NCBI RefSeq assembly: GCF_028464145.1
Contig: NZ_JAQPCG010000002.1
Span: 558,001-622,000 of the forward strand
Direction: 5' to 3'
From: Maribacter sp. PR1
GTDB taxonomy: Bacteria; Bacteroidota; Bacteroidia; Flavobacteriales; Flavobacteriaceae
Length of the DNA: 64,000 nt
Part shown: positions 18,093 through 60,837 of the stretch, piece by piece
How positions within the stretch are numbered: position 1 is the stretch's first letter
How the letters are laid out: each line of letters opens with the position of its first letter
Position numbers and translations under genes: made by a program
Notes under the pieces: generated by a model
Told to the model about the DNA's origin: nothing
The model's database searches: none
Seen by the model: the letters and a program-made list of their open reading frames with translations, nothing else

Positions 18093-18992
18093 TTATTTTT
18101 TTTCAATATAGTCGACCAGTTTCTGAGGTCCTTCAAGCAATAACCTTACTACCTTTAAGGTTCCGTCCAAAGTGGTATCAATATGCCATTTTATTAGGGA
18201 AATTTGTCCGTTTTCAATTTCTATTCCGGTAATGCTCCTTGGGTGGACACAACTACCATCATTAAAAAAAGGAATGTCCCCAGGTTCCGGGAACCTAGGT
18301 CTATGGGTATGTCCTACAATGGTAATCAGTAAATTGTTTTTGAGTATCCATCTTTTAATTCTTCTTTCCAGTTTTATTAATTCCTTGTAATTTTTGGCCG
18401 GACTTGTTGGGTCTGCTATTCCCCAAACTTGCAATGGTTTCCATAATACCCTTACCAAAAACCGTCCCCATCGCCAGAAAGTATAGTTCCACCAATCCGC
18501 TTGATGGCCATGGGTGAGAAATAGTTCTTGATTGGTTTCCGTATGTTTCAAAATTATGGCCTCATTATAGGTTATTCCCTCGAACAATTCTTTATCTGTA
18601 TCATCTATGGGTTCAAAGTAACTGGATAGATGGTTGTCTACATAATCCTTATCCTTGTAAACCATATCATGGTTTCCCCAAATCATATGAAGTCGTTGTC
18701 CCAAATGAAATTTACGTAGAAGTTGGTACACATTTTTATGGGCTTCAAAGATGGATTCGAAATGAATATTTTCCCAAAGCTCATCTCCATCCCCAAGTTC
18801 GCAATAATCAAAACCTTCGTTATAGTAGTGGTTCAGGGCATGAAAGTAAATGTTTCTGTTGTTGGCAAAATCATCTGCAAAACTATTGTCCCCACGATGG
18901 CAATCACTAAAAAGAATGAATTTTGAAGTATCGTCAAACTGAATGTACTTTGCATTGGAGTATGCTCTTGAAAGTCTTTTTGAGGAGGACAT
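18093..18992 (-). CDS. Metallophosphoesterase, LpxH-like
   Basis: A 299-residue calcineurin-type phosphoesterase. Metal-binding motifs are in order: FSDCHRGD (D30, H32), ELGDGDELW (D68, D70), IWGNHDM (N107, H108), LTHGHQAD near residue 180 and VGHTHRPRF near 245. The DCHRGDN and HGHQ arrangement is close to UDP-2,3-diacylglucosamine hydrolases, but the protein is longer than LpxH (about 240). It may act on a lipid-A precursor or another phosphodiester. First gene of a short operon with the AraC regulator and possibly the acyltransferase. Confidence 0.87.
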   Translation of the reverse strand: MSSSKRLSRAYSNAKYIQFDDTSKFILFSDCHRGDNSFADDFANNRNIYFHALNHYYNEGFDYCELGDGDELWENIHFESIFEAHKNVYQLLRKFHLGQRLHMIWGNHDMVYKDKDYVDNHLSSYFEPIDDTDKELFEGITYNEAIILKHTETNQELFLTHGHQADWWNYTFWRWGRFLVRVLWKPLQVWGIADPTSPAKNYKELIKLERRIKRWILKNNLLITIVGHTHRPRFPEPGDIPFFNDGSCVHPRSITGIEIENGQISLIKWHIDTTLDGTLKVVRLLLEGPQKLVDYIEKK

Positions 18993-19105: not shown

Positions 19106-21475
19106 ATGGAAAATGAGGATAAGATACGGCCGCTCCAGTACCAAATAAGTTTTGGTAAGCTTTTAAAGGAGTATGAAAGGTTGAGCAAGGGCAACGATAA
19201 GATATTGGCGGAAAGGGCCAAACAAATACTGGATGCCCAAAAACCGTATCCGATACTTCGGGAAGGCTTTGCGGATTTTGAATTGCTTGAAGAACATAAG
19301 GAGGTAATCTCCCTTATGCTTCAGGATAGTTTTTCACCCATATTAGGCGAGAATGAAATTAAAGTGGCTTCTATTCCATATTTTGACTTTTTCTTTAATC
19401 CTTCTAAGCGTTTCCAGAATATCGTAAAAGAAGCTGGACCTAACTTTAAGCCCAAAATCAGAAATCAAGAAAAAGGGATTGATTATATCATGGGGTGTAC
19501 AGTGATATTAAAATTCCATTATGGTGTGGAGCTAGACTTTAGCCGACCTTATTTTTATGATATTCCGGATTCCAATGGGGTTATGCGCCATTACCGCATT
19601 ATGTACAACGCGGATTTTATGGAGATACTTCCTACTGAACGATCAAAGGAACTTTCGCAGGAAGATATTGATGAGTTGATGGAAAGCCCAGATAATCTAA
19701 GTCTGTGGAAAGAAAAGATACCGCCAGATAGTTTTGTTGCAAAAGGATTTATAATTTCCAACATGTTCGATGTCACCTCCGAACATTCAATATCTGAAAT
19801 TAAGTCCAATCTAATCGCAAGCGATAAAAGATCTAGTGAAAGTTTTATGAGTAACCTTCAGGAAACCTTTAGGTCATTTTTTAGGTTGCCGGGTATTAAA
19901 GTAGGTTTCGTCGTCTATAACTCCAAAAAGGACCAATTTGAACCGGTTTACGGAAAAGATATGGGAAGCTTTATCCTTAATGGACAGGATTCCAAATCGT
20001 GTCACGAGGCCCTTTGTCAATACTCCTATAAGAAACTTATTAAAGAGAATTCTTATTTCGCCATTCCCGATGTTGCAAAATACGATGAGAAGTCGCATGG
20101 AAGTGACCCATACCATGTGCTTGAAGACCAAAATATCAAGAGCGCCATTTTGGCACCGATTGCTTTTGAAGGTGAGCTCTTAGGTGTGTTGGAAGTAGTT
20201 TCTGGCCGAAAAAACGAACTAAATGGGGTCAATGCAAGAAAGCTTAACGATGTAATGCCCTATATCGTTTCTGCAGTAGTGAGATCAAAGGTCGAGGAGG
20301 AAAATTTAATAGATGCCATTATACAGAATGAATGTACCTCTGTACACTCCTCTGTATATTGGAGATTTCAAGAGGAAGCGAAATTTTTTATTAAAGATCA
20401 GTTGGAAAGTAGATCACCATCTTTCAAGGAAATTGTCTTCAAAGATGTATATCCACTTTACGGTCAAATAGATATTAAGGATTCTTCGAAAGCTAGAAAC
20501 AAGGCAATTCAAAGGGACTTGATGATTCAGTTGTCTCAAATAAATGTGGTTTTAGAGCTTGCACTTGGGAAGAATAGACTCCCTATTTATGAAGAACTTG
20601 TATATAGGGTGAACAATCATTTAGAAAGCATTAAGGAAATGCTTTACACCAATAGTGAGCAGGCTATATTTGATTTTGTTAAAGAAGAAATTGATCCGGT
20701 TTTTGCCCACTTAAAGGATTCGGACACTGAAATTGCCAAACATATACAGACCTATGAGGCAAAAATAGATATGGGCACAGGCTCCTATTATGATCATAGG
20801 AAAAATTATGACGAGAGCGTAACAATGATTAATAAAAAATTGGTTTCGGTCTTGGATAAAAAGCAGGAAAATGCCCAGGCCATGTTCCCGCATTATTTTG
20901 AGCGATACAAAACGGATGGCGTTGAACATAATATGTACATCGGTGCGAGTATTTCTGAAAATGGAGGATTCAATAGTTTGTACCTGAACAATTTAAGGTT
21001 GTGGCAATTACAGGTAATGTGTGAAATGGAGAATGTACATTATAAGTTAAAACCAGAATTACCTATACCCTTAAATGCTACTTCGTTGATTTTGGTATAT
21101 AGTTCATCTTTATCCATACGTTTCCGGATGGATGAGAAGAAATTTGATGTGGATGGAACCTATAACGCACGTTATGAGGTTATCAAAAAACGAATTGACA
21201 AAGCCTATATAAAAGGAACAGAGGAGCGACTTACCCAAACAGGAAAAATAGCCATTGTATATTCCCAAAAAAAGGATGAGTTGGAGTATTTAAGGTACAT
21301 TAAGTTCTTAAAGTCCAAAAACTACTTTACCGACAAAATTGAAATTGTGGAACTTGAAGGTTTACAGGGTGTTTCAGGACTAAAAGCTATACGCGCAGAA
21401 ATTCTCTATAAAAAAGACCAAGAATCTCAAGAATCCTATACCTATGAAGATTTAATGGCCACTCTAAAAGAATAG
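19106..21475 (+). CDS. GAF domain-containing protein of unknown function
   Basis: A 789-residue cytoplasmic protein. A GAF-like sensor domain is readable at about residues 245-395 (IKVGFVVYNS, SYFAIPDV, SAILAPIAFEGELLGVLEVVS). The N-terminal 240 residues contain no recognised motif but start with a helical segment; the C-terminal 390 residues are helix-rich and include acidic coiled stretches (about 500-620). No HTH, kinase, cyclase or GGDEF motif is visible. GAF domains bind cyclic nucleotides or small molecules, so a sensory role is likely, but the output is unknown. Its stop overlaps by 12 bases the stop of the convergent HD-PycTM gene. Confidence 0.8.
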   Translation: MENEDKIRPLQYQISFGKLLKEYERLSKGNDKILAERAKQILDAQKPYPILREGFADFELLEEHKEVISLMLQDSFSPILGENEIKVASIPYFDFFFNPSKRFQNIVKEAGPNFKPKIRNQEKGIDYIMGCTVILKFHYGVELDFSRPYFYDIPDSNGVMRHYRIMYNADFMEILPTERSKELSQEDIDELMESPDNLSLWKEKIPPDSFVAKGFIISNMFDVTSEHSISEIKSNLIASDKRSSESFMSNLQETFRSFFRLPGIKVGFVVYNSKKDQFEPVYGKDMGSFILNGQDSKSCHEALCQYSYKKLIKENSYFAIPDVAKYDEKSHGSDPYHVLEDQNIKSAILAPIAFEGELLGVLEVVSGRKNELNGVNARKLNDVMPYIVSAVVRSKVEEENLIDAIIQNECTSVHSSVYWRFQEEAKFFIKDQLESRSPSFKEIVFKDVYPLYGQIDIKDSSKARNKAIQRDLMIQLSQINVVLELALGKNRLPIYEELVYRVNNHLESIKEMLYTNSEQAIFDFVKEEIDPVFAHLKDSDTEIAKHIQTYEAKIDMGTGSYYDHRKNYDESVTMINKKLVSVLDKKQENAQAMFPHYFERYKTDGVEHNMYIGASISENGGFNSLYLNNLRLWQLQVMCEMENVHYKLKPELPIPLNATSLILVYSSSLSIRFRMDEKKFDVDGTYNARYEVIKKRIDKAYIKGTEERLTQTGKIAIVYSQKKDELEYLRYIKFLKSKNYFTDKIEIVELEGLQGVSGLKAIRAEILYKKDQESQESYTYEDLMATLKE

Positions 21476-22684
21476 ATTTTGGGATATTAATTCGTGTAAT
21501 TGCCGTTCTGGACCGTAAACTTTAAAGAAAATGGCAAATGCAATGACCGAAATAATCATACCTATCATAAAGATAGTGTAAGTCCAACGTAGTAACATAT
21601 ATTTCCTATTCAAAACTTTGCCAAGAAAGTAAAGATCTTTGGTCAGGGAAGAATAGATATAATCCTTGTCCTTTACCAATTCATTTATAGCCCATTCGTA
21701 GTCGGTTAAGCTCATTTTATGAAAATTCCCAAAAAATAGTAGGTTGACTTTCTTCTGCAGAACGTCCTCATGGGTAAATTCCCCACTTGTAACGTTTGGT
21801 CTAGTGGCTAGAACGGCCATAATCATTGAGGCCACACTAAATAGTACAAAAATAGCGGTAGGGTATATTAAGTAATCGTTAGATGGGTTGTCCAGTTTTG
21901 GTATAAGATTGGAAAGTGCCAGTGAAATAATTATGGCATTAACGGAGAGAAGTATATTGGCCTTGGTATCCGCAATATCACTAAGTGTAATATGGTTTTT
22001 TAAAGTAACCCTGAAAAGTGTTTGGATTCCCCTGTCCGGACTTTCGCCTTTAAACTTTGCCTTTAAAGCTTCTTTTTTTGCAAGGCCTTTTATGGATTTT
22101 TTTTCTTTAATGAGTTTTCTTAGGTTTTCATCTTTTTTTTCTTGCCAATTTTCTTTGGCATATTCCGTAAAGTAACGATGTTGATTACCCAACATTTTAA
22201 TATTGACTTCTACCCAATCACTATAGCTGAAATTTGCAAGGTTTAATAGTTTAAGTTCTTCCCTTAACAACTCCGAAGTTTCTAAATAACTACTCTGTGC
22301 AAAATGCGAAGCATCTGCATCCCTTAAAATTTTTTCTGAAAGGGAATTGGGTACAGAGTTTTTTTCCGTTGCCATAATACAATCATTCACTTTGGCAATT
22401 AATTCTGGATCATATTCTTGGTCTTTCAAAAATTGGGTAGCAATACTACAACTGTTCTTTTCATGGTTTTTGCTTTCCACCGTGTATCCCGTATCATGAA
22501 ACCAAGCCGCAAGTAGTAAAACCTCCAATTCCTGTGTGGATAGGGCACATTCGTTCGATATTTCTTTAGTACTTTTAACGACACGTTGCGTGTGCCTTAA
22601 ATTATGGTAAAGGTAGTTGGGACTTAGTTTCTTAGATAAAAGTTCCTCAACATAATTTTTGGATTTCTGAAGGATATCAGACAT
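21464..22684 (-). CDS. HD-domain phosphohydrolase fused to a PycTM (DUF5706) membrane domain
   Basis: A 406-residue two-domain protein. The N-terminal HD domain has H31, the H63-D64 pair in WFHDTGY and D124 in RDADASH. After a basic linker (about 183-215) comes a segment matching the Pycsar-effector transmembrane family: the hallmark ADTKANILLSVNA at 238-250, two helices at about 250-265 and 272-292, the NLLFFGNF turn at 314-321 and a last helix at 368-388. In Pycsar defence, PycTM proteins kill the cell on binding cyclic pyrimidine nucleotides; here the fused HD domain could hydrolyse such a nucleotide. No cyclase is adjacent. Single-gene HD-PycTM proteins seem common in this family, so a housekeeping role is possible. 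Confidence 0.85.
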   Translation of the reverse strand: MSDILQKSKNYVEELLSKKLSPNYLYHNLRHTQRVVKSTKEISNECALSTQELEVLLLAAWFHDTGYTVESKNHEKNSCSIATQFLKDQEYDPELIAKVNDCIMATEKNSVPNSLSEKILRDADASHFAQSSYLETSELLREELKLLNLANFSYSDWVEVNIKMLGNQHRYFTEYAKENWQEKKDENLRKLIKEKKSIKGLAKKEALKAKFKGESPDRGIQTLFRVTLKNHITLSDIADTKANILLSVNAIIISLALSNLIPKLDNPSNDYLIYPTAIFVLFSVASMIMAVLATRPNVTSGEFTHEDVLQKKVNLLFFGNFHKMSLTDYEWAINELVKDKDYIYSSLTKDLYFLGKVLNRKYMLLRWTYTIFMIGMIISVIAFAIFFKVYGPERQLHELISQNLFF

Positions 22685-22740: not shown

Positions 22741-25700
22741 ATGAAAAAAAATTGCGCTTTTCTCTTATTGGTATTGTTAATTACGGGCTGTGCGACCTAT
22801 AAATCTAAATATGCCAACATTAAGGATGCCGAGGATATCGTATTGGATAACGAGATAAAGCACACCTTTTATCTTGTTGGGGATGCGGGCCTATCTCCTC
22901 TTGGAGATATGAATCCAGTATTAAAAAACTTCAAGAAACGACTGGACAGCGCGGAGGAGAACAGCACAGCTATTTTTTTGGGAGATAACATTTACCCAGC
23001 TGGCCTTCCCGACCCAAAGGATTCTACCGTTGCTTATTTAACCGCAAAGAATCACTTAGACGCTCAGTTAAATACTTTGACCAACTATAAGGGAAGAAAA
23101 TTGTTTATACCGGGAAATCACGATTGGTATACTGAAGGTCTTGTTGGTTTGGAAAGAGAGGAAAATTATGTAAAAGAAGTTTTGAATGATAAAGATGCAT
23201 TCCTTCCCAAAAACGGATGTCCAATTGAAGTAATCGAAGTCAGCGATGAAATTGTAATTATAGCACTCGATACGGAATGGTATCTGACCAACTGGAACAA
23301 ACGTCCCGATATTAACGATAAGTGTGAAATAAAAAGTAGGGAGAAATTTCTCCTTGAATTGGAGGATGCCATAAAAGATTACAGGGATAGAACCACCGTC
23401 ATTGCGATGCATCATCCCATGACCAGTTATGGCCCCCATGGAGGGCAATATTCCTTTAAAAAACACTTTTATCCAAAAGATCAGCCAGTTCCACTCCCGG
23501 GATTGGGGACATTTATAAACGTACTTAGGCGCACATCGGGTGCATCCACGGAGGATATGAGTAATAAAAGGTATTTAGATTTGGTCAAAAAGGTGACTAC
23601 ATTGGCGCAATTTTCAGAGAAGGTGATTTTTGCTTCGGGACATGAGCATACTTTGCAATATATCGTTGAAAATAATACACCACAGATTGTAAGTGGGTCT
23701 GGGGCAAAAGAGGGAGACACCAGATTATTAAATGGGTCAAGGTTTTCCACGGGAAGAATGGGATATGCAATCTTGGAAGTCTATGGAGACGGTTCTTCAA
23801 GAGTACGTTATTATGGGGTAGGCGAACAAGGGGAAGAGGAGTTTCTTTTTACTTCTGCTGTCCTACCACCTGAAGTGCAAAAAGCGGACACGCTTTACTC
23901 AAGAACAACAATAAAGGAAGTTAAGGCCTCCGTCTATACCGAAGAGGAAATTGATAAGTCTGGATTTTTTAAAGCCATTTGGGGAGAAAGGTATCGAAAA
24001 TACTACGGCAAGGAAGTGACAGCCCCGGTGGTTTATTTGGATACTATTTTTGGTGGTCTTAAGCCGGTAAAAAAGGGAGGGGGACACCAATCTAAATCGT
24101 TGAGGTTAAGACATGCTTCGGGCAAGGAGTATGTGATGAGGGCTTTGAGAAAACTTCCTGAGTTGTATCTCCAATCCATGGCCTTTCAAAATCAGTATGT
24201 CATGGATGATTTAAAGGAGACGTACACCCAGGAACTTTTGGCGGATTTTTATACGGGTTCACATCCTTATGCACCTTTTACGATTGGTAAGCTCTCCGAT
24301 GCCGTTGGGTTGTTACATACCAATCCCACCCTATATTACATACCAAAACAGAATGCCCTTGGAAAATACAATGAGGATTTTGGGGACGAATTGTACATGA
24401 TTGAGGAACATGCCGGTGATGGTCATGGAGACCTTGAAAGTTTTGGGTATGCCAATGAGTTAAAGAGCACGGATTCCATGCTTGAGGATTTAAGGGATGA
24501 TGAGAAATATGAAGTGGATACGGATGAATATATAAAGGCCAGGTTGTTCGATATGGTCATTGGAGATTGGGACAGACATGTGGACCAGTGGAGATGGGCA
24601 GAATTTAAGGAGGATGGTAAGGTAATCTATCGGCCCGTACCTCGGGATAGGGATCAGGCTTTTTCCCAAATGGGGGATGGACTGTTAATGGGTTTGGCAA
24701 CTAGGATTATTCCAGGTTTACGATTAATGGAAGGATTCAATGAAGAAATACGCAGTGTTAAAGGATTTAATTCTTCACCAAAGACTTATGTACTAGACTT
24801 GGCATTATTGTCCGAAAGTACGCTGGATGATTGGTTAAAGCAAGCTAGATATATCAAGGAAAACCTTGGAGATAAGGATATCGACGAAGCTTTTGCCATG
24901 TTTCCAAAAGCCGTACAGGATTCGAAAACTGAGGAGATGAAAAGAATTCTTCTGTCAAGAATAGATAATGTGGAAGATACCGCGATTAAATATTTCAGGG
25001 TACTTAACAAATTTGCTACGGTTGTTGGAACGGATAAAGATGATTGGTTTGAAATTAATAGGTTCGATGAAAATCGAACCGAGGTAAAGGCATACCGAAT
25101 CATAGATGGAGAGAAAAAGAAACAATTTTTCAATAAAGTTTTCTATGCTTCCAGTACCAATGAAATTTGGATTTACGGATTGGATGATGATGATATTTTT
25201 GAATTGGAAAACCCAGAGGATTATGGTGGAATAAAGGTTCGTATCATTGGGGGGCAAAACAATGATATTTACAGAATAAAAAATGGCAAGGGAGTCTCTG
25301 TTTATGACTATAAAAGTAAAGATAATACCTTGGAAGAAACTTCAAGAACCAAGGTCAGGTTAACGGACGATTATCCCGTGAATACCTATAACCCTTTGAA
25401 TATTCGGAGTAGCAATAACCAGGTCATACCCACAGTAGGGTTTAATCCTGATGATGGTATTAAAATTGGTTTTTTAGATACCTATACATACAATGGCTTC
25501 AGACAAAATCCTTTTACCCAACAACATACTTTAAAAGCGTCTTATTATTTCGCTACAAGTGGGGTAGAACTTCAATATAATGGTGAGTTTGCCAATATTT
25601 TCGAGGATTGGAACCTTGAATTAAAGACAAGGTTCACAACGCCTAATTTTGCCATTAACTTTTTCGGGTTTGGGAACAATAGTGAAAATTTGGATGATGA

Positions 25701-26451
25701 TTTGGGATTGGATTATAATAGGGTAAGAATTCAAAATTTTGAATTTTCTCCGTCTTTGGTTTGGAGAAGTCCTTTGGAAGCAAAGTTTAGACTTGGAGTT
25801 TCTTACGAAATTATTGAGGTAGAAGAAACTGCTGATAGATTCATTAATACATTTTATCAAGGAAATGGGGAAGAGACAGGGAATAGCTTCGTAGGTGTTC
25901 ATGGAGAATACACCTATGAGAATCATGATAATCAAAGTTTTCCCACTATGGGCATGGCAACTTCGGTAAAGGTTGGTTTTAAAGATAATATAAATATAGA
26001 AGGAAAGAATTTCGGTTATTTTATTCCCAGTATTTCGTTTGATTATAAATTGATTCCAAGCGGGCGTTTGGTCTTGGCAACAAAATGGAAAGGTCATCTT
26101 AATATGGGGAACGGTTATGAGTTTTACCAGGCGGCCAGTATTGGTGGTACGAATGGTTTGCGAGGTTTCAGAAATCAAAGGTTCACCGGTAAGGCTGCGT
26201 ATTTTCAGAACACGGATATAAGATTTAGTCTAAGAAAAATAAGAACTCAAATAGTACCTACTGCTATAGGGTTCTTTGGAGGATTCGATTATGGCAGGGT
26301 TTGGTCTCCCGGTATTTCCTCTAACCAATGGCATACTTCGTACGGCGGAGGTTTTTTTCTTAACGGAGCAGATATTTTAAGTGTAAGCCTTGCCCTATTT
26401 AATAGTGCAGATGGGGCTCGTTTTACTTTTGGTTTGGGTTTTGGGTTTTAA
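22741..26451 (+). CDS. Lipoprotein: metallophosphoesterase + kinase-like domain + outer-membrane beta-barrel
   Basis: A 1236-residue chimera with a lipobox (ITGC, Cys 17). Residues 40-380 form a calcineurin-like phosphoesterase: GDAG (D48), GDN 81-83, GNHD 125-128, MHHP 223-226, GHEH 300-303. Residues about 410-780 form a second domain: YLDTIFGG 432-439, a Gly-rich KKGGGHQSKSL 444-454, LGKYNEDFG 540-548, IGDWDRHVDQW 607-617 and PRDRDQAF 634-641. The last two resemble the catalytic DRH and metal-binding Asp motifs of HipA/FAM20/PI3K-like kinases, an inference of mine. Residues about 870-1236 are amphipathic strands ending in Phe (GLGFGF), an Omp85/surface-antigen-like barrel. It is probably anchored in the outer membrane with both enzyme domains in the periplasm. 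The middle domain recurs alone at 59507-60778. Confidence 0.85.
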   Translation: MKKNCAFLLLVLLITGCATYKSKYANIKDAEDIVLDNEIKHTFYLVGDAGLSPLGDMNPVLKNFKKRLDSAEENSTAIFLGDNIYPAGLPDPKDSTVAYLTAKNHLDAQLNTLTNYKGRKLFIPGNHDWYTEGLVGLEREENYVKEVLNDKDAFLPKNGCPIEVIEVSDEIVIIALDTEWYLTNWNKRPDINDKCEIKSREKFLLELEDAIKDYRDRTTVIAMHHPMTSYGPHGGQYSFKKHFYPKDQPVPLPGLGTFINVLRRTSGASTEDMSNKRYLDLVKKVTTLAQFSEKVIFASGHEHTLQYIVENNTPQIVSGSGAKEGDTRLLNGSRFSTGRMGYAILEVYGDGSSRVRYYGVGEQGEEEFLFTSAVLPPEVQKADTLYSRTTIKEVKASVYTEEEIDKSGFFKAIWGERYRKYYGKEVTAPVVYLDTIFGGLKPVKKGGGHQSKSLRLRHASGKEYVMRALRKLPELYLQSMAFQNQYVMDDLKETYTQELLADFYTGSHPYAPFTIGKLSDAVGLLHTNPTLYYIPKQNALGKYNEDFGDELYMIEEHAGDGHGDLESFGYANELKSTDSMLEDLRDDEKYEVDTDEYIKARLFDMVIGDWDRHVDQWRWAEFKEDGKVIYRPVPRDRDQAFSQMGDGLLMGLATRIIPGLRLMEGFNEEIRSVKGFNSSPKTYVLDLALLSESTLDDWLKQARYIKENLGDKDIDEAFAMFPKAVQDSKTEEMKRILLSRIDNVEDTAIKYFRVLNKFATVVGTDKDDWFEINRFDENRTEVKAYRIIDGEKKKQFFNKVFYASSTNEIWIYGLDDDDIFELENPEDYGGIKVRIIGGQNNDIYRIKNGKGVSVYDYKSKDNTLEETSRTKVRLTDDYPVNTYNPLNIRSSNNQVIPTVGFNPDDGIKIGFLDTYTYNGFRQNPFTQQHTLKASYYFATSGVELQYNGEFANIFEDWNLELKTRFTTPNFAINFFGFGNNSENLDDDLGLDYNRVRIQNFEFSPSLVWRSPLEAKFRLGVSYEIIEVEETADRFINTFYQGNGEETGNSFVGVHGEYTYENHDNQSFPTMGMATSVKVGFKDNINIEGKNFGYFIPSISFDYKLIPSGRLVLATKWKGHLNMGNGYEFYQAASIGGTNGLRGFRNQRFTGKAAYFQNTDIRFSLRKIRTQIVPTAIGFFGGFDYGRVWSPGISSNQWHTSYGGGFFLNGADILSVSLALFNSADGARFTFGLGFGF

Positions 26452-27314
26452 TTAACCTGTACTTTACTTAAGTCTAATGTATAAAGATTATTTCCAGTCC
26501 CATGGGAACGTTCGTCGGATAGCAATATGATATCTTCATTAACGAAGCAAATGGATTCCAGTTGCGTTCTTATTCCTAAATCTATTTCTTCTATTTTACC
26601 ATTTGAAAAATTATCCCATGAAAAATCTGTAAAGATGAAGAGTTTGCCGTAACTGAGGGCAACTACCTTTTCTCCGCTTGGAGATATATCGATACCCGTA
26701 ATTTGACATGTTTCCCATTCATCACATAAATTCACTTTTGCTACCAAGGTAGCTTCATATTCACCCTTAGTGTCGGGTACGCTATAAATATGGGCGACAC
26801 CGGTAAATGGGTTAGATCTATTTTTAGTTACGATAAATAGCTTGTCCCCATAATGGAAAAGTGCCTCTGCGTCAAAAAAACGTTCGGACTTTTTGGGTGG
26901 AAACTCTTTTTGATCTGGATAGTTAAGTTCTATTTTTTCTGCATCGATTTTATCCCCAGGTTCTATTTCTGGATTTGGAACTTTGTATATCGTTAGATTA
27001 TCTCGACTGTTATCATTGTTTCCAATGTCGGCAATATATAAGTTTCCTAATTTGTCCTTGGTTAAATCTTCCCAATCGTCGTTGTCTCCATTCTTTACTT
27101 TCAAAGACTTAACAATATCTCCATTAAAGTCAACCTTATAGAGTATGTCTTTATTTCCACCGTCCTCAATCACCCAAATTGTAGAATCCTTTAGGCTTAC
27201 CATACCCGAGTTTTCCTTAAGGCTTCCCGGTAAGTCGGTGACCACGGTCAACTGTCCGTAGTTGCTGCAAGAAACAGTTGTTAAGAAAGTCAATATTAAT
27301 AAAGTTCTAATCAT
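26448..27314 (-). CDS. Beta-propeller-like lipoprotein of unknown function
   Basis: A 288-residue lipoprotein (lipobox TVSC, Cys 16). The mature part has repeated blade-like strands: SGMVSLKDSTIWVIEDGG, WEDLTKDKLGNLYIADIGN, ERFFDAEALFHYGDKLFIVTKN, ITGIDISPSGEKVVALSY and LESICFVNEDIILLSDE. This pattern of acidic turns and hydrophobic strands fits a six-bladed propeller, as in SdiA-regulated/phytase-like families; no catalytic set is certain. Its TAA overlaps the stop of the large phosphoesterase-barrel gene in the shared TTAA at 26448-26451. Envelope location; function unknown. Confidence 0.8.
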   Translation of the reverse strand: MIRTLLILTFLTTVSCSNYGQLTVVTDLPGSLKENSGMVSLKDSTIWVIEDGGNKDILYKVDFNGDIVKSLKVKNGDNDDWEDLTKDKLGNLYIADIGNNDNSRDNLTIYKVPNPEIEPGDKIDAEKIELNYPDQKEFPPKKSERFFDAEALFHYGDKLFIVTKNRSNPFTGVAHIYSVPDTKGEYEATLVAKVNLCDEWETCQITGIDISPSGEKVVALSYGKLFIFTDFSWDNFSNGKIEEIDLGIRTQLESICFVNEDIILLSDERSHGTGNNLYTLDLSKVQVN

Positions 27315-27449: not shown

Positions 27450-28814
27450 CTAGTCCTGGTTTGCGGCAACGGTATTGTCGTTTTGCATTTTGATTTTATC
27501 AATGAGCAATGCTCCTAACTCCCTACCTTGGCCAACACCTATTTCTACGGCTGCGCGATAGTGGATACCTCCATACATTCTACTGATAGCCGCTTCATCT
27601 GCCGCTTCGTTAAAAGAGTTGAACTTTCTCATGGGTAAACCATAAGGCATTTCGGTATCGTCCTCAAAACTAAATCCATCGCCGAAAATATCTGTTAGAG
27701 CAGTTGCCGCTGCACCGGATACAACACTATGCCCACTAGTATATTCGGGGAAAGGAGGAGTTTGTAAAATAGGCACCCAGTTTTCGTCGATATGCTGATT
27801 AATTAATGTCTCAGGTCGAATAAGATTGCTTCTGTATTTTTCATCCCAACAGCTGATAAAAGCATCGGCAATGGCCATTGATGTTTTGGTATAGGCAAAA
27901 ACAGTTTTTTCGAAATCACTTTCCGTATCCTTACAGGCTATTTTTGTAATACCGATCCAATGTGCACCAGGCGTAATTTTTTTTGTGGCGAACATTAAGT
28001 GTCCACGGGTAACGGAGACATACGGATTACAATCCCAAAACTTGGCAATGGCAACTTCTTCAGATGAGTCACCAACAGCCGTAATCCTATTACTGGTATC
28101 ATAAACTTCTTTCAATTCTTTATAAAATTTCGAATTTTCATCCATAGAAAATGGTGGAGGGGGCACGGGCTTAAATTGTGCGGCCGAATCCAGAAAAAAT
28201 GGCCTGATTTTATTCCAGTGTGGTTCAATACCATCCATATATGCAGGAGGTGTTGGTTGCCATCTGGCCGGGTCATCCGTATTGACCGTAAACTTGGGCA
28301 TAGTGCGCGTTTGGCTATAATTGTCCTTACCCATCCACTTTTTTATATGCTCAGCTACTTTTTCACCATATGCTTTTGAGGCATCAAATTCAACTTTGTT
28401 GGTCGTCTCCCACTTATTGAATAGGCTGTCTTGTAAAACATTAAATTTATCCTCGGAGAAAATCAGCTGTTTGCTAATGTTCATATGGGCAATCATAGCT
28501 GCCAAGTGAGCGTTCACATTGGGAACAGAATCAAGTTTTGGTATTGGTGTAAGCTCGTTTACTTGCCCTGCCAAGGAATTGTATTCTGGGTTAACCTGAG
28601 CTATAATCTCATATGCCGCGATATTTGGGTAAGCAAAAATTCTACTTGCTACGGGCGGAGAAAAGATATCATGTATCATAATCTCTACAACTTTATCTAT
28701 AGAGGTATGTAAATCTTCCGCGGTTATATTGATAGGTTCATTGCTTTGCGGCTTTTCTTGGGTACAAGAAAATGAAATCAATAAAAGAAGTAGTGCCGAA
28801 ACTTTCCTGAACAT
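27450..28814 (-). CDS. Vanadium-dependent haloperoxidase-like / PAP2-superfamily lipoprotein
   Basis: A 454-residue lipoprotein (lipobox SFSC, Cys 17). The vanadate/phosphate-binding signature KX6RP is exact at K326-R333-P334, followed by TSGH at 359-362 (usual PSGH; H362 would be the catalytic or acid-base His) and SRX5H at 411-418. The final Asp/His position of the classical motif is Ala422, a difference from animal and plant phosphatases but seen in bacterial VHPO-like proteins. The enzyme could be a haloperoxidase or an acid phosphatase; sequence alone does not decide. It is exported and single-gene, with a good promoter at 28863-28892. Confidence 0.85.
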   Translation of the reverse strand: MFRKVSALLLLLISFSCTQEKPQSNEPINITAEDLHTSIDKVVEIMIHDIFSPPVASRIFAYPNIAAYEIIAQVNPEYNSLAGQVNELTPIPKLDSVPNVNAHLAAMIAHMNISKQLIFSEDKFNVLQDSLFNKWETTNKVEFDASKAYGEKVAEHIKKWMGKDNYSQTRTMPKFTVNTDDPARWQPTPPAYMDGIEPHWNKIRPFFLDSAAQFKPVPPPPFSMDENSKFYKELKEVYDTSNRITAVGDSSEEVAIAKFWDCNPYVSVTRGHLMFATKKITPGAHWIGITKIACKDTESDFEKTVFAYTKTSMAIADAFISCWDEKYRSNLIRPETLINQHIDENWVPILQTPPFPEYTSGHSVVSGAAATALTDIFGDGFSFEDDTEMPYGLPMRKFNSFNEAADEAAISRMYGGIHYRAAVEIGVGQGRELGALLIDKIKMQNDNTVAANQD

Positions 28815-29957: not shown

Positions 29958-32900
29958 TTAAGGTATTAGTTTGTACAATTGCGCTTTTTCATCATTGAAA
30001 GTTGCCAGTAAATATGGCCGGTCCTTAAAACGTAGAATATTGAGGTGCCGGAGGGATTTAAACATAAAATTTAAACCTATATCGTTACCCATTTGGATTT
30101 CATCAGGTGACTTTATCAGGGCCCCAGAAAAGGAATCAAATCTACCGTGATAAGGTTTCACACCAAAATAATTTCCGCCGGCCAGTACTTCTTCCCTTCC
30201 GTCTCCATTAAAATCGAATCTGAGAAAATCCATAATTGGAGCCAATTGCAATTCAAAAGGAAAAGGAACGAATTCAAAACGGCCATTTTCATTTTTGAGA
30301 TAACCGGATTTAAGCTCTCCTACTGTGAGCAACCTTGACTTTTCAAGTAGCTCATTGCCCAATACCTCCTCAATGGGTTTACCTGCAAAGGAGGTATAGG
30401 TATTAAATTTTTTACGTAAAAACACCAATTGGCTGGATAATTCATTGAGTCCGTCTAAAGGGTAATATCCATCTTGGTTATAGTTACAGACGATGGTTTC
30501 GGTGTTACCGTTGTCATCAAAGTCATTATAATACATTTTTAACGGATGCTTTTTAGAAGCTGTGAATTTCGAATTTGCACCCCAATTTCCCAATAAATAA
30601 TCAAGGTCACCATCCTGATCAATATCAAAGCTCTCTATACTTTGCCATAGGCCTGTTAAATTCTCGTCCAACAGTCCTTCCTCCAATACAAGATTACCGT
30701 TGTCATTTTTGAAGAATTTTGGGCTCATCCATTCCCCGACAATGATTAAATCTGTTTTACCATCATTATTGAAGTCTTCGGCAATTGCATCCGTGACCAT
30801 ACCTAAAGCTTCGAAAGATTTGGTATTTTTCACGGAGTACTTACCATTATCGTTTAAAAGAAGATACGATTTAGGGAGCTTGCCAAAATCACCCGAAACA
30901 GATTGACTCCCAATAAAAAGGTCCAAATCCCCATCCGAATCAATGTCAATAGGGACTATGACCGAAGTGTTTTCGTACAATTCCGGAAAATCCAAACGAA
31001 TTGCTTCGCCCTCTTTTATATGGAAATTGTAATAACTATTCTTCAGTGCTTTGGCCTGTCCGAAAAAGTCTGCCCCTCCCGTACCTACCAATAATTTAGG
31101 AGAACTATTGCTGTCTGGCTTAAAAATAATGGATACCACGTCCTCCTTAACAGAATCTTTTTGAATGCTGGGGTAAGTAGAACGGACGAAATTTGTGTCT
31201 TTTTGAATATAGATTTGTGCAGGAACAAATTTGGAACCGCCAAAGTATATGTCATCCTTACCGTCATTATTGATATCACCTATACTAGTAGCAGGACCAC
31301 GGTCCGACGCTTTGTAGGGGATAAGTTTTTGTCGATTAAAATCGGTATAAGCATCTTCCTTGTGTTCAAAATCTAAACCAAGACCATCTTCAACGAGGGT
31401 AAATAATGGTTTGACTTCTGTTTTCCTTGATCTTGAGTTTGGAAAAGTACTTTCTGGCGAAATTTCTAAGGTTTGATTTACCGCCACGTTTTTCAATACT
31501 TGATGGGATCGATCTGGCCAAATTATTTCCAGTGAATCTATATTAGTCAATTGGCTATACCCAAAGTGTACTATAGGTTGGGAAGAGGACTGGAACCCAC
31601 GAACCGTGTATAATTCCCTAAACTGTATTTTTCCCTTAGAATAAGACGTGACTTTTGTTCCAATACCTAAGGTGTTTCCTTTCTTATAGTTCAGTTTCAC
31701 CTTTAAATAATTAGAGGTCATATTGGTTAGGTTTTCATAGAAGGTAACCTGGCTATTAAGGTTATTGGTAATAATATCCAAGTCTCCATCATTGTCTAAA
31801 TCACCATAGGCAGTAGCTCCTGAAACCAGCGTATCTTGAGGAATCCATTCCTTGGATTGGTCAACGAAAGTTGGCCCGGAACCTCCTTGAAAAATTTTAT
31901 TACCAACATGGCCAGAGGGCATTAATTCCAAGGCTTTTTTGTCTATTAAATTTGTATTGTTGATTTTTTTTTCAACATTTTCATTCGATAGAAAGTTTAT
32001 ATAATCCAGGTCATTAGGACGTTTTGGAATACCGTTACTAATAAAAATGTCCTGCTCCCCATCTTGATTATAGTCACCAAAAAGTGCGCTCCAACTCCAA
32101 TCCGTGGCAGCCACACCACTTGCCAGTGCAGTTTCCTGGAACGTGCCGTTAGATTGATTTAAATAGAGCATGTTGCGGGTAAATTGGTAATGATATCCGT
32201 AATCGTTAATGCGAAGTTTTTGGACTTGAATATTATCATCGCCTTCGGACGATTTAATTACTTTTTCATCCTCAGGAAGCATATCCAAGGATATTAAATC
32301 AGGGCGACCGTCATGGTTCAAGTCTGCCACGTCGCTACCCATTGAAAATCTCGAAGTATGACCAAAATAATTCCTTAGACTTTCCGTAAAAGTACCATCG
32401 CCATTGTTGATGTAATAGTAATCATCTTCATGAAAATCGTTACCTATGTAAAGGTCTGGATAACCGTCCAAGTTGAAATCCGAAACAGCTACTCCAAGTC
32501 CATAACCATTTATTCCCCCAAAAATACCTGCCTCCTCACTCACATCGACAAATTTTCCATTATCGTTTCTAAGCAGTTTATCTCCTGTTTCGTAACTGCG
32601 TTCGTACCTGAGTTTAACGTTTCCAAAAGTATCTTGTGAATGTACGGCATGATTTAAAAGATAGATATCCAAATCGCCATCTAAGTCATAGTCTAAAAAT
32701 GCGGCATTGGAACTATAGGATTCATAATCTAATCCATATTCGGCCGATTGCTCCTTAAATGTTTCATCCCCTTGATTAATAAATAACTCATTATGTCCAT
32801 TGAAACCGTTTAACCCTACAACGGCACAAACGTAAATATCCAAAAGACCGTCCCCATTTACATCGCCCATTACAGCCCCTGTATTCCAAGAGCTTTTTCC

Positions 32901-33215
32901 GGAAACGCCGGCTTTTTCAGTAATATCCTGGAACTTTAAATTACCTTGGTTTATATAAAGTTTATTTTCGGTCTGGTTGGCAGATAAATAGATATCCGGC
33001 AAATTGTCATTGTTGATATCACCAATGGCTACGCCACCACCATTATAAAAATAGAGATAATCCAAGATGTTGAGGTCATCTGTTTCTCGAAGGGTATTGG
33101 CAAAGTCAATACCTGTATCCTCAGCCTTGAGTTTTTTAAATACCTCACCAGAATTAGTATCGGAACAACTTAAAAGCACGATGCATATGAAAAAAACAAG
33201 ATATCTAATTCTCAT
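29958..33215 (-). CDS. VCBS/FG-GAP repeat and ASPIC/UnbV-domain lipoprotein (third of three)
   Basis: A 1085-residue surface-type lipoprotein (lipobox LLSC, Cys 17 from the start used). It contains many calcium-loop repeats of the form DxNxDGxxD (for example GDVNGDGLLDIYV, DYDLDGDLDIYLL, DINNDGKDDIYFG) that build beta-propellers, with an ASPIC/UnbV segment in the middle (TVRGFQSSSQPIVHFG, IWPDRSHQVL). An upstream ATG at 33242 is in frame, but the ATG at 33215 puts the signal peptide first. It overlaps the preceding paralogue by 11 bases. The family is found with SusC/SusD genes in marine Bacteroidetes; glycan or protein binding at the cell surface is a guess. Confidence 0.87.
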   Translation of the reverse strand: MRIRYLVFFICIVLLSCSDTNSGEVFKKLKAEDTGIDFANTLRETDDLNILDYLYFYNGGGVAIGDINNDNLPDIYLSANQTENKLYINQGNLKFQDITEKAGVSGKSSWNTGAVMGDVNGDGLLDIYVCAVVGLNGFNGHNELFINQGDETFKEQSAEYGLDYESYSSNAAFLDYDLDGDLDIYLLNHAVHSQDTFGNVKLRYERSYETGDKLLRNDNGKFVDVSEEAGIFGGINGYGLGVAVSDFNLDGYPDLYIGNDFHEDDYYYINNGDGTFTESLRNYFGHTSRFSMGSDVADLNHDGRPDLISLDMLPEDEKVIKSSEGDDNIQVQKLRINDYGYHYQFTRNMLYLNQSNGTFQETALASGVAATDWSWSALFGDYNQDGEQDIFISNGIPKRPNDLDYINFLSNENVEKKINNTNLIDKKALELMPSGHVGNKIFQGGSGPTFVDQSKEWIPQDTLVSGATAYGDLDNDGDLDIITNNLNSQVTFYENLTNMTSNYLKVKLNYKKGNTLGIGTKVTSYSKGKIQFRELYTVRGFQSSSQPIVHFGYSQLTNIDSLEIIWPDRSHQVLKNVAVNQTLEISPESTFPNSRSRKTEVKPLFTLVEDGLGLDFEHKEDAYTDFNRQKLIPYKASDRGPATSIGDINNDGKDDIYFGGSKFVPAQIYIQKDTNFVRSTYPSIQKDSVKEDVVSIIFKPDSNSSPKLLVGTGGADFFGQAKALKNSYYNFHIKEGEAIRLDFPELYENTSVIVPIDIDSDGDLDLFIGSQSVSGDFGKLPKSYLLLNDNGKYSVKNTKSFEALGMVTDAIAEDFNNDGKTDLIIVGEWMSPKFFKNDNGNLVLEEGLLDENLTGLWQSIESFDIDQDGDLDYLLGNWGANSKFTASKKHPLKMYYNDFDDNGNTETIVCNYNQDGYYPLDGLNELSSQLVFLRKKFNTYTSFAGKPIEEVLGNELLEKSRLLTVGELKSGYLKNENGRFEFVPFPFELQLAPIMDFLRFDFNGDGREEVLAGGNYFGVKPYHGRFDSFSGALIKSPDEIQMGNDIGLNFMFKSLRHLNILRFKDRPYLLATFNDEKAQLYKLIP

Positions 33216-36200
33216 AAAGGCTATAGATTTTTGGAGTAGCATCGTTTATAGCCGCTACAATAAATTCTTTTCCCGATTTATCCTTTAGTATTTTTAGGTG
33301 TTTGACCTCTTCCCTTATGAAAAAACCACTTTCGTTATAGTTCTGCCAATCGAATCCCAGTTTTCCATCCCCTAAAAGAACGTTTCCGTAATTGGCGTCC
33401 AGTCTAGAAAACTGTGGCTTGAACTCAAAATTATTGCCTGCCATAATCAAATCTAAGTTCCCATCAGCGTTTACATCCGTACACTCTATACCACAAATAC
33501 AGGAAAATTGAACCTGTGGTGGTAATACCTTGAAGGAAAATTTTCCTTCCCCTTCGTTGATGGCAATCATTGACTCTGAAGTTGCCGCTTCCTTAACAAT
33601 TGAATTCGCTATCACTTCCTTTGAAAAGAGTTGGTCTACCCTGCGTTTGGCATAGTCGGAAGCTTTAATATTCTCTTTTTTTAGGGCCAAAATCTGGGTG
33701 GTCAGTTCCTTTTTTTGATGAAGGGGATAGTCACCTCCATTATAGCGTTGCGTTACGATTTGCTCAATGGTTCCGTCATTGTCAAAATCATTGACCCACA
33801 TTTTCATTGGTTTTCCCGGTGCAGGTTTATAATGCAGATTATTGCCGGCATTACCCAGAATTAAATCAAGATCTCCGTCGTTATCCAAATCTTTAGCATT
33901 AACTGCTCCCCACCATCCACTTAAACTATCCAAGTTACTTTCCAATTTACTGAGCCTACGACCAGAATTTTTAAAAATTTGTGGGGTTCCCCAATCCGAA
34001 ACGGTTATTAGGTCCTTCTTATCATCTTCATCGATGTCTACCCAAATTGCATCGGTAATCATACCCGCATTCTTTAGGTCGTATGCAGATTTTTCGGTTA
34101 CATCAGAGAATGTATTGTCTCCATTATTTAGAAGTAATAAATGGTTTGGTTCTACTCCATAGGTACCCACAACACTGCGGGATCCAATAAAAATATCGGT
34201 ATACCCATCTCCATTAAAGTCGAAAGGAGCCACCACGGAAATGTTCTTGTTTGTACTTGGAAGCTTAGCATCTAGTTTGGAAAAATTGGCTTTGCCATCA
34301 TTGATATAAATTCTTGCGCCGTACGTACTTTGCATGCCCAACTCGTTTCCTCCATTTCCTACTATTAAGTCTAGGTCACCATCATTATCGGAATCAAAAA
34401 ATGAAGCAGAAACATCTTCAAATTCTGCATCTACTTCAAAATAAGAAGTATTGGGACTACCTACTTTTCCATTTCCGCTATGAAGATAAAGTGTAGCGGG
34501 TTGCCCTTTGGCACCTCCTATAAAAAGATCTTCGTTACCATCCCCGTTCACATCTCCTATGGCCATAGCAGGTCCCTCTTCGGCAAGGGATTGGTATATT
34601 AACCCTTCATTGTCAAAATCGTTATACTCGTTTTCTTTATGGGTATAAAAAGTTGGATTATTTACCTCTTGTAAAAATGGGAGACTATTCTTTGTTTTAG
34701 GTAACGTATATTTTGTTGAAGCATCGTTATAGTTTAAAGTCAAAGTTTGGTTTGCTTTAACTTTTGTTAGTTTTTGAGTTGAATCATCGGGCCAGATAAT
34801 TCTTATAGAGTCTATTTCTTGTATTTTCCCCAGACCGATGGTCATTGGGTATTCTACGGAAGATTGGAATCCTCTAGATGGAATTAAGGTTTGACCTATG
34901 ACTTGATTATCAAAATATAATTTGGCAACAGTTCCTATGGCGAACTTATTTTTATCAGGCCCCTCAAAATCAAGTTTAATGAAATTATGTTCTTTTTTCT
35001 TTTCGGTATTGTTTCTGTAAACAAAACTTTCCATGTTCACATTATTTACAACCAAATCCAAGTCCCCGTCATTATCCAAATCGGCATAAGCAGCACCATT
35101 CGATTTACTAGGAACTTCAAAACCCCATTCTTCGTTTGCGTTTTTAAAGGTTATATCGCCGTTATTCTTGTAGGCGTAATTCGGTAAGGGTGTCATGGGC
35201 ATTTTGTTGATAATGGAATCAATAGACTCCTTTCGTCCTGTCAATGCCATTTTTTGGATAATTTCATTCGCGAAAAAGTCCACAAAATCCAAATCGGTAA
35301 GGTCGTGGTTAATGCCATTGGTTATAAAAATATCTTTTAGCCCGTCATTATCCATATCGAACAAGAGGCCGGACCAACTCCAATCTGTTGCCTCAATTCC
35401 GCTATAATAAGCGACTTCTGAAAAAGAACCATTACCATTATTCAACTGTAGGGTATTCTGGATATATTGCTGGTGGAAATCCTTACTCTGTTTCAATTTA
35501 AAAATATTATAACCTTCAAACTCCATGACGGATTTAACGCGTTGGTCAGGTTCCGGAAGCATATCGGTAATAAAAATGTCACTGAGCCCATCGTTGTTTA
35601 TATCTGCGATGTCAATTCCCATGGCGGATAGGCTTAGATGGTTGGTCCATTTTTTTATTTCCTCACTAAATGTACCGTCATGATTGTTGATGTATAAATA
35701 ATCTCGCTCATAAAAATCGTTAGAAACATAAATATCCGGGTAAAGGTCTTGATTGATATCTGTAATCATTACACCCAAACCAAAACCAATGAGACTTCCA
35801 TAAATACCTGAATCCTCGCTAACATCTACGAATTTACCATCATCGTTTCGTAATAACATATCACCAACACCCTTGAATATGTCCGGAACTCCTTCCCAAT
35901 CTTGAGCTCTAACTTCGCGTTGTTCTGCATACCCTAAACTACTAACTGGAATGTTGCTATTGTTGAGGATATAAGCATCTAGATCTCCATCTTTGTCGTA
36001 ATCGAAAAAAGTGGCGTGTGTGGAAAAACCAGTTTTGGCCAAATTAAATTCAGAGGCCCGTTCCGTGAAGGTTAAATCACCATTGTTAATGAACAAATCA
36101 TTATCGTGGTTGTTCCCTTCCATATTACCCGCATTACTAACATATATATCCAGAAGACCATCGTTATTAATGTCAGCCATGGTTACCCCTGTGGACCAAG

Positions 36201-39853: not shown

Positions 39854-39961
39854 ACGAACCAAACAATCGAAAATGGGGTTAAAGAAACGGAATTTATTGG
39901 CTTTGGCACGAATTTTTAACCTTGTGCTAACTGTTTTAAACTTTTATTAAGTTTTTAATCT

Positions 39962-59365: not shown

Positions 59366-59533
59366 ATGAATATATCACCGGTATTAGGCTTTGCAAAATT
59401 ATTGGTTAAGAGTAGAAAGACAAAACTTCTGTTAATTGGGGCCCAGCTGGGCTATGTGGGTTATAAATATTTAAAAAACAGAAAACAAAAGTACCCTAAA
59501 CCCAAATCAAAGGCAGTCAAAACAACGGATTAA
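59366..59533 (+). CDS. Small membrane-associated protein (55 residues)
   Basis: An ATG at 59366 opens a 55-residue frame: a short start MNISPVLGFAKLL, a basic patch KSRKTK (15-20), one hydrophobic stretch LLLIGAQLGYVGY (21-33) and a very basic tail rich in Lys, Pro and Asn (34-55). The charge layout is that of a single-helix membrane protein with a cytoplasmic basic tail. The 3' end overlaps by 27 bases the end of the convergent kinase-like gene. I recognise no family; the balanced start and topology make it more likely real than chance. Confidence 0.5.
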   Translation: MNISPVLGFAKLLVKSRKTKLLLIGAQLGYVGYKYLKNRKQKYPKPKSKAVKTTD

Positions 59534-60778
59534 AGGACTGGGTAAACCCAAATCCTCCGAACCTTTTAAAGGTGTATTTAGATATTCCTTCTCGGTTAGA
59601 ATTTCATAAAAATCCTCGGCTATTTGGGGAAGGTTCTTTTTTCGGGATTGAATATTACCAATAATCTCTTTTGCATCTAATTTGTAAAGTTGTTCTGGCC
59701 ATACCTTAAAGCTATTCGCTATCATACGATCTGTTAACATGCTTTGTAATTTTTCGGCCTCGGTCAAAAATTCCTTCTTGGAGCTATTTTTTAGGAAGTA
59801 AACATCAAAAGGCATGACTAAACCCGGAAGATAATCTATGTCCTTTTCAAAGGACTGTAGTCCAGGGAGCAAGTGCCTATTTGAAATGATGGTTGGAATT
59901 AAACCGCCAATGTTAAAAAATGCATTATCCCTGTCTCCTGCAATGGGCACTGCGGTATAGCTTCTTTCCTTCTTTGTTACTGCCCATCCCCATTGTTTGG
60001 AATGTCTGTCCCAGTCGCCAATTATAATGTCGAACAATCTGGCCCTTATCAGTGTTTTTCTGTCAATTTTTAAATCAGACCCAAGGTCAACTTTTAATTC
60101 TTGGAGGTCGTCGGTATCGATGATTTCTTCAACTCCTTGATAAGGAATCCAGTTTCTACCGCCCTCGGTTTCATGCTCCAAAAGGTAGATTCTATTTCCA
60201 TAATTTTCATTATATTTTCCTAAGGACTTTTGTTGTGGAATGAATACGGCCCTAGGTTGGGTATGAATTAAATTTGCCTTGTCCGCCAATCTAGCGACGG
60301 CTAATGCCGAAAAAGGATGCTGTGCGGAAATACCATCTACGATAATATTTTCTAAACCTAATGTTTTTGCCCATTCCGGAATTAAAGGTTTTGGGTCTTT
60401 GTTTATACTTCTTAATGTATAGATGTATCCCTCTTTAGATTTCAACTTTAAACTGTGTGTTTGTTTTCCTCCGCCTTCCTCTAAAATTTCCACTCCCCCG
60501 AAAAGTGTATCCAAATATACGATAGGGAAATTTACGGGGGTGGACCAAGCTTCGCGGTACTGTTCACCCTGTATTATTGTTTTTATAGGGTTTGCCTTGT
60601 ATAGCATACTGGGCGAAATGGTAACAGAATCATGTTTGGAAAAATCAAATGATTCCAAATCTTCTGTAGTTTTAACGATACAAGTGGTAAATTCTTTATC
60701 CGTGGAAGAAATTGAAAAATAGGTCAAAAGGATTAATACCAAGATGATAATACCTACACCTAAACCAATTTTTTTCAT
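59507..60778 (-). CDS. Membrane-anchored kinase-like protein, paralogue of the 22741-26451 middle domain
   Basis: A 423-residue protein with one N-terminal transmembrane helix (about residues 4-21) and a periplasmic domain. It repeats, in order, the motifs of the middle domain of the large phosphoesterase-barrel lipoprotein: YLDTLFGG 88-95, GGGKQTHSL 102-110, SLGKYNENYG 185-194, IIGDWDRHSKQWGW 252-265 and GDRDNAF 281-287. The DRH and DRDxAF pair (D257, D284) resembles the catalytic and metal-binding residues of HipA/FAM20/PI3K-like kinases; this assignment is inference. The ATG at 60778 is chosen over TTG 60784. It follows the M1 peptidase gene by 59 bases on the same strand, possibly in one operon. 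Confidence 0.8.
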   Translation of the reverse strand: MKKIGLGVGIIILVLILLTYFSISSTDKEFTTCIVKTTEDLESFDFSKHDSVTISPSMLYKANPIKTIIQGEQYREAWSTPVNFPIVYLDTLFGGVEILEEGGGKQTHSLKLKSKEGYIYTLRSINKDPKPLIPEWAKTLGLENIIVDGISAQHPFSALAVARLADKANLIHTQPRAVFIPQQKSLGKYNENYGNRIYLLEHETEGGRNWIPYQGVEEIIDTDDLQELKVDLGSDLKIDRKTLIRARLFDIIIGDWDRHSKQWGWAVTKKERSYTAVPIAGDRDNAFFNIGGLIPTIISNRHLLPGLQSFEKDIDYLPGLVMPFDVYFLKNSSKKEFLTEAEKLQSMLTDRMIANSFKVWPEQLYKLDAKEIIGNIQSRKKNLPQIAEDFYEILTEKEYLNTPLKGSEDLGLPSPLIRCFDCL

Positions 60779-60837
60779 TCGCAAAAGTTACCCAATCAAG
60801 AGAACTTTTTGTAATTCAGAAACAAGTTTTAAGAGCC

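Follow-up and report, generated by a model that had tools for sequence, protein, structure and literature searches.

A lipoprotein of Maribacter sp. PR1 joins a predicted purple acid phosphatase, a kinase-like domain and an Omp85-type barrel

We analyzed a window of 64,000 nucleotides of the Maribacter sp. PR1 genome (contig NZ_JAQPCG010000002.1, positions 558,001 to 622,000), in which a gene on the forward strand, at window positions 22741..26451, encodes a lipoprotein composed of a purple acid phosphatase domain, a kinase-like domain and an Omp85-type barrel. The open reading frame (ORF) starts with ATG, is free of internal stops and encodes 1236 amino acids (aa). Its first codons specify a signal peptide with the lipobox LITGC (22741..22791), whose cysteine is Cys17. 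An earlier reading of this DNA made from the letters alone (the sequence-only reading) had claimed such a lipobox and three domains within one lipoprotein; the lipobox is indeed there, and a structure model together with a barrel comparison confirmed the three-domain architecture. The model of the whole protein, covering residues 38 to 1236, had a pLDDT of 83.3 and a pTM of 0.82. When the full 1236-aa protein was searched, Pfam gave only PF00149, plus a sub-threshold ShlB match at an E value (E) of 1; NCBIfam gave Omp85_fam at 1.1e-17, under the cut-off of that family; and a search of PDB sequences found no relative at E 1.

The N-terminal domain has a purple-acid-phosphatase fold and is a predicted binuclear-metal enzyme. 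The PF00149 match spanned residues 58 to 240 (6.7e-7), and a profile made from relatives covered residues 39 to 372 (22855..23856), close to the range of 40 to 380 that had been proposed for a metallophosphoesterase. All seven ligand positions were filled, by D48, D82, Y85, N126, H224, H301 and H303; these positions, including the Tyr, are what we take to be the seven metal ligands of purple acid phosphatases.

At the other end of the protein, the model showed a 16-strand Omp85-type beta-barrel at residues 888 to 1236 (25402..26451), a barrel of the BamA/TamA type that characterizes the Omp85/TpsB superfamily. A C-terminal barrel had been expected at about residues 870 to 1236; in the model the first of the 16 strands begins near residue 888. 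It is preceded by a short linker rich in beta structure (residues 784 to 887; 25090..25401), with short Asp-rich strands according to a DSSP analysis of the model. The repeated Asp-rich strands recall a small beta-roll, and no Pfam match was found for the linker. Its profile aligned with that of the end of the kinase-like domain, perhaps as an internal repeat. No POTRA domain was found in the 1236-aa protein by Pfam at E 1; the phosphatase, the kinase-like domain and the linker precede the barrel. Omp85 subfamilies without POTRA have been accepted (PMC4104836). An Omp85 barrel with an even number of strands has both of its ends on the inner side, so the phosphatase and kinase-like domains are most likely located in the periplasm.

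Between these two parts lies the kinase-like domain (residues 413 to 783; 23977..25089). Its AF2 model (pLDDT 89.7, pTM 0.89) displayed two lobes of a kinase-like fold, and Foldseek and VIA placed the predicted fold with the HipA/FAM20/CotH/PI4K kind. The sequence-only reading had taken this domain, unnamed and set at about residues 410 to 780, for kinase-like, and had stated beforehand that a fold unrelated to protein-kinase-like folds would speak against the idea; the model gave no such fold. The top Foldseek match was CtkA of Helicobacter pylori (3akk; 1.4e-5), and the top VIA matches were PI4KII-beta and alpha. Since the best structural matches were PI4KII, which phosphorylates lipids, and CotH, which phosphorylates proteins, the substrate class could not be read from the fold. 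A kinase-like fold is common to enzymes of differing chemistry, and both this ambiguity and the non-standard active site described below would suit another chemistry on such a fold, for example, AMP transfer, glutamylation or small-molecule phosphorylation. Nothing specific spoke against that explanation, though no signature of another chemistry was looked for, and we regard it as improbable. The PI4KII matches also raised the idea of a lipid kinase acting on outer-membrane inositol lipids, which some Bacteroidota make. A search of 196 genomes, however, found no match to PF01658 (inositol-1-phosphate synthase) in this genome or in any other of its family, and a count made by hand showed that, of the 70 genomes with the domain, 53 were absent from the 34 PF01658 matches (196 of 198 genomes searched). 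A general role as an inositol-lipid kinase was therefore rejected, and for this protein it is barely credible.

Several results weaken the case for kinship with kinases. Among the matches listed (50 rows), the Foldseek TM-scores by query length did not exceed 0.37. The sequence match to CtkA was not significant (E 0.096), the profile probability was 54% for CotH, and that for HipA_C was 7.5%, hardly above a barrel control. Besides Fam20C, 32 Pfam families matched some of 48 members at E ≤1, and Dna2, an unrelated Pfam family, reached 0.0013 among them. For the domain in the window, neither Pfam (at E 5) nor the PDB sequences gave a match, and NCBIfam has no model specific to it. The CotH cut-off (PF08757) was not reached by the 1236-aa protein, with its PF00149 and sub-threshold ShlB matches only. 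For HipA_C (PF07804), with a cut-off of 30.5 bits, protein P0002 scored 11.1 and the 1236-aa protein gave no match; for Fam20C (PF06702; 26.8 bits), the sole match in 198 genomes scored 20.4 bits. A simple HipA-type protein was rejected, as the HipA_C cut-off was not reached and the three HipA_C matches of this genome lie on other contigs. Evidence at the sequence level alone is unconvincing for kinship with kinases; by fold and motif together, the domain is a predicted kinase of the CotH/HipA/FAM20/PI4K group, and its chemistry is likewise a prediction.

To describe the putative active site, we counted conservation over 149 homologous domains, the two in the window included. A Gly-rich turn, GGGH (residues 446 to 449; 24076..24087), connects the first two strands (43 to 48 and 54 to 61 in model numbering, which is also used for the secondary structure below), with G446 and G447 present in 143 of 149 domains. 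The third strand (66 to 74) contains RALRK (467 to 471; 24139..24153), with an Arg at the Lys position and then the conserved Lys471. A catalytic-loop-like motif, DWDRHVDQWRW (609 to 619; 24565..24597), and a DFG-like motif, PRDRDQAF (634 to 641; 24640..24663), lie further along. The positions given earlier for IGDWDRHVDQW (607 to 617) and PRDRDQAF agree with the translation. In the loop, D611 was kept in 142, R612 in 146, H613 in 139, Q616 in 144 and W617 in 147 of the 149 domains; in the DFG-like motif, the numbers were 143 for D636 and 142 for D638. Elsewhere, R467 (143/149), K471 (144/149), D502 (145/149) and E555 (144/149) were also kept. By this conservation, the paired DRH and DRD motifs are more than a chance occurrence.

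In the model, D611-R612-H613 comes after a helix (197 to 210), and a hairpin of two strands (220 to 227 and 230 to 237) leads on to D636-R637-D638. The catalytic Asp is thus predicted after a helix of the C lobe and the metal Asp after the hairpin, as in the kinase fold, and the modeled order of D611 and D636/D638 matches that of the catalytic loop and the DFG motif in kinases. DRH and DRD stand at opposite ends of one hairpin and so should be close to each other; a wide separation of the two, named in advance as a result that would speak against the idea, was not seen. D638 had been proposed as the metal-binding Asp. This choice can be refined: a profile alignment paired both Asp residues of DRD with two Asp residues of CotH, so D636, or D636 with D638, may serve in place of D638 alone. 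Inactivating changes in CotH were reported at D228 and D251, 23 residues apart (PMC7821199), compared with 25 from D611 to D636 and 27 from D611 to D638.

A beta3 Lys and a metal-ligand Asn, five residues after the catalytic Asp, are usual in kinase active sites, and neither was found here. The beta3 position was Arg467 in 143 of 149 domains and Lys in 1, so the Arg noticed earlier at the ATP-binding Lys position is almost invariant; the Asn position was Gln616 in 144 and Asn in 2. Because both residues are replaced nearly throughout, ordinary Mg-ATP binding is not assured. From its position at the end of the strand, the conserved Lys471 could replace the beta3 Lys, and Gln616 aligned with an Asn of CtkA in a sequence alignment. 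In addition, D611 or D638 was lost in 10 of the 149 copies. These features would fit a pseudokinase or sensor that binds nucleotide, polyphosphate or a phosphorylated ligand and signals to the phosphatase or the barrel with no transfer, and a hydrolase and a barrel as fusion partners would suit a sensing module. Yet D611, H613, D636 and D638 were kept in 139 to 143 of 149 domains, more than is usual where a domain only binds. Both D611 and D638 were intact in all 114 phosphatase-fused proteins and in all 6 stand-alone copies; among linker-only copies the pair was intact in 6 of 8, and among barrel-only copies in 13 of 21. In a predicted Legionella kinase family, Arg was likewise reported in place of the Lys while the rest of the site is conserved (PMC9758233). 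A sensor is unlikely, though it deserves serious weight, and the hint of a pseudokinase in the sequence-only reading lost ground, as the conservation of D611, D636 and D638 makes one less likely. The pattern would rather correspond to a working enzyme with altered handling of nucleotide or metal.

Eight domain-barrel copies without D611 or D638 resemble natural pseudoenzymes (L095, L116, L117, L118, L119, L120, L121 and L122), one of which, at locus L117, adjoins an intact copy. Loci L088 and L099, both of one family (f9), carry three and two clustered linker-only copies, respectively; in each cluster, one copy has Ser for D611.

The kinase-like domain was carried by 111 of 296 sampled Bacteroidota genomes, and Flavobacterium johnsoniae, too, has a relative (L202). 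The 149 copies in the fetched loci comprised 114 with phosphatase, domain and barrel, 21 with domain and barrel, 8 with the beta linker and no barrel, and 6 alone. All copy counts start from searches with the kinase-like domain, and a single scan, through its 80 closest loci, supplied 80 of the 114 phosphatase-fused copies, which inflates that class. In a tree of 76 of the 149 domains (close relatives thinned, short rows dropped; the long branches L095 and L118 are unsure), phosphatase-fused proteins stood on both sides of the midpoint, the four architectures needed 8 changes versus a minimum of 3, and the stand-alone copies formed one clade with full support. The phosphatase domain was absent from 35 of 149 copies, and 9 of the 114 fused relatives had no complete phosphatase site (one of the 9 is truncated at the end of its contig); all 9 kept the kinase motif. 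Judged from these sequences, the constant part of the family is the kinase-like domain, not the phosphatase, which is dispensable. The same counts do not support the claim of the sequence-only reading that phosphatase and kinase form an opposing pair on one substrate; its suggestion of an unusual phosphoryl donor likewise stays conjectural. The counts also bear on the view that this is an Omp85-type secretion or assembly protein whose N-terminal domains are mere scaffold or a surface passenger, as in the patatin-Omp85 protein PlpD. The barrel is BamA/TamA-like, and such roles were discussed for the PF00149-Omp85 subfamily by Heinz and Lithgow in 2014 (PMC4104836); against this, 14 of the 149 copies are barrel-free (8 linker only, 6 alone), and 12 of the 14 keep D611 and D638. 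We find this view quite doubtful.

Not noticed in the sequence-only reading were a stand-alone domain copy in the window, a full-length paralogue in the genome and conserved neighbors. The stand-alone copy (59507..60784, reverse strand; 425 aa) has a hydrophobic N terminus, belongs to the six-row clade of stand-alone copies and adjoins an M1-family peptidase gene at 60838-62436. The paralogue (L002, contig C18, 1483-5265) shares 38% identity. Its phosphatase site is degenerate; D611, H613, Q616, D636 and D638 are intact, E555 is Gln, and the gene also adjoins one bearing PycTM. Plasmid records gave 5 matches, all in Bacteroidota genera and annotated as "hypothetical protein" or with no listed gene, and one single-sequence IMG/VR scan, reaching close relatives only, confirmed no viral relatives.

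The probable explanation, in our view, is that the protein is an outer-membrane enzyme that carries a phosphatase and a most likely active kinase-like transferase on an Omp85 barrel, with folds and activity predicted. The N-terminal lipid and the 16-strand barrel would anchor it in the outer membrane, with two domains of catalytic type, the purple acid phosphatase and the atypical kinase-like domain, ahead of the barrel. The latter, as the conserved core, would most likely be a phosphotransferase or related transferase that modifies an envelope component. Where present and intact, the phosphatase may reverse that modification or handle phosphate from the same pool. The domain composition, folds, motif conservation, modularity and gene neighborhood come from sequence or prediction, and from them we infer location, activity, substrate and donor; that folds and activity are themselves predicted counts among the points against this explanation.

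A survey of the gene neighborhood covered 62 loci chosen for spread over 23 family labels, including the weak-match locus L123 and the loci of stand-alone copies; instead of annotation, the counts used ORFs that were called mechanically, with length deciding between overlapping ones. The divergent neighbor (21464..22684, reverse strand; 406 aa) has an HD domain (PF01966) and a PycTM domain (PF18967), the latter known from Pycsar effectors. A defense system was rejected on the PADLOC result, with no further test of defense context: PADLOC marked only the PycTM part of this neighbor and gave weak PDC-M03A matches at the DRH region. Of the 23 families, 16 had HD-PycTM-type genes near the kinase-like domain, and in 15 of these the distance was at most three genes. 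The HD-PycTM cluster comprised 37 proteins. The 31 with at least 300 aa came from 12 families, in 11 of which they lay within three genes, and the remaining six, all short, were PycTM-like or HD-like only. A PycTM match was found in 62 of 70 domain-bearing genomes versus 14 of 128 without the domain (Fisher, 1.6e-28, uncorrected for kinship), and at most 5 kb from the domain in 40 of the 70. The convergent neighbor (26448..27314, reverse strand) encodes a small protein of a propeller-like cluster, which is related to the SdiA-regulated cluster (hhalign probability 98.5). The protein itself had no Pfam match, and a relative gave weak NHL, SMP-30 and SdiA-regulated matches. Secreted SdiA-regulated/propeller genes were found in 12 of 23 families (11 within three genes), or, with a related flavobacterial version counted, in 13 families and beside 23 of 55 barrel-bearing genes. 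A gene for the polyphosphate kinase PPK1 was near in 8 families, 6 of them with a distance of at most three genes; for a SixA-type phosphatase, the corresponding numbers were 7 and 5. As background, the third most widespread cluster, of response-regulator type, was found in 10 families and within three genes in only 3.

These recurrent neighbors are our ground for assigning the system to the physiology of phosphate or polyphosphate; the gene order, circumstantial as it is, suggests a part in phosphate or polyphosphate homeostasis. Other counts loosen the association. Four families had only a short PycTM-like protein. In the phylum sample, only 25 of 34 phosphatase-fused and 6 of 21 barrel-only copies had the HD-PycTM type at a distance of at most three genes; none of the 8 linker-only and none of the 6 stand-alone copies did. 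PPK1 was within 15 kb of the domain in at least 18 of 70 genomes, 15 of the 18 belonging to one family (f23). Because PPK1 was present in 183 of 198 genomes and lies here on another contig, adjoining a SixA-like gene, the polyphosphate link comes from gene order only. A more specific version of our explanation, in which a periplasm-facing outer-membrane kinase uses a donor other than ATP (polyphosphate or another periplasmic donor) and acts with the phosphatase as a phosphate switch for lipids or proteins of the envelope, tied to polyphosphate kinase and an HD-PycTM membrane protein, is speculative, and we would not expect it to hold as a whole.

Among further observations, a PycTM match lay at most 5 kb from PPK1 in at least 6 of 198 genomes, and one stand-alone copy (L103, genome G118) lies about 6 kb from one of the two PPK1 genes of its genome. 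In the window, two more putative phosphatases are encoded nearby (18093-18992 and 27450-28814), for which cluster relatives suggest a metallophosphatase and a protein of the PAP2 family, and a reverse-strand tandem of three ORFs with overlapping ends (1094, 1133 and 1103 codons) occupies 29958-39862.

If the kinase-like domain is an active kinase, phosphorylation would take place at the outer membrane, a site with no known supply of ATP, and experiments with the purified domain could address directly which phosphoryl donor it uses. The protein may reflect a so far undescribed way in which bacteria handle phosphate at their surface, and the HD-PycTM proteins of Bacteroidota would gain a possible partner. 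The kinase-like middle domain was the subject of no report in the open-access literature searched. To our knowledge, no kinase-like enzyme built into an Omp85 protein has been known before, and this one would be the first.

Parts of this architecture have counterparts in known systems. Heinz and Lithgow described in 2014 an Omp85 subfamily, "Metallo," that has PF00149 before the barrel, lacks POTRA and has its PF00149 called a metalloprotease domain (PMC4104836); the word "kinase" is absent from the main text of that paper. Judged by domain composition, with PF00149 and an Omp85 barrel, our protein fits this subfamily. Its PF00149 domain, unlike the protease label, is a phosphoesterase of the purple-acid-phosphatase type, which suggests that the 2014 label for such Omp85 proteins is wrong. 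What is new is therefore a kinase-like family unlisted in Pfam, the PF00149-Omp85 architecture being already partly described. The purple acid phosphatases of human and pig, in contrast, are not known to be joined to a kinase-like domain and a barrel. CtkA (3akk) and HipA have a DRH catalytic loop that, in the CtkA alignment, can be aligned by sequence with this domain, and these kinases are without a barrel or phosphatase. CotH kinases (PF08757; 5jd9, 5jda) are spore-coat proteins for which we know of no fusion to a barrel or a phosphatase, and the 1236-aa protein gives no CotH match in Pfam. FAM20 secretory-pathway kinases are animal proteins, and relatives of the domain stayed under the Pfam cut-off in the genome search. 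The PI4K type II lipid kinases (9hhm, 4wtv) are eukaryotic, share about 10% identity with the kinase-like domain and carry the beta3 Lys and the metal Asn, where the lipoprotein of Maribacter has Arg and Gln.

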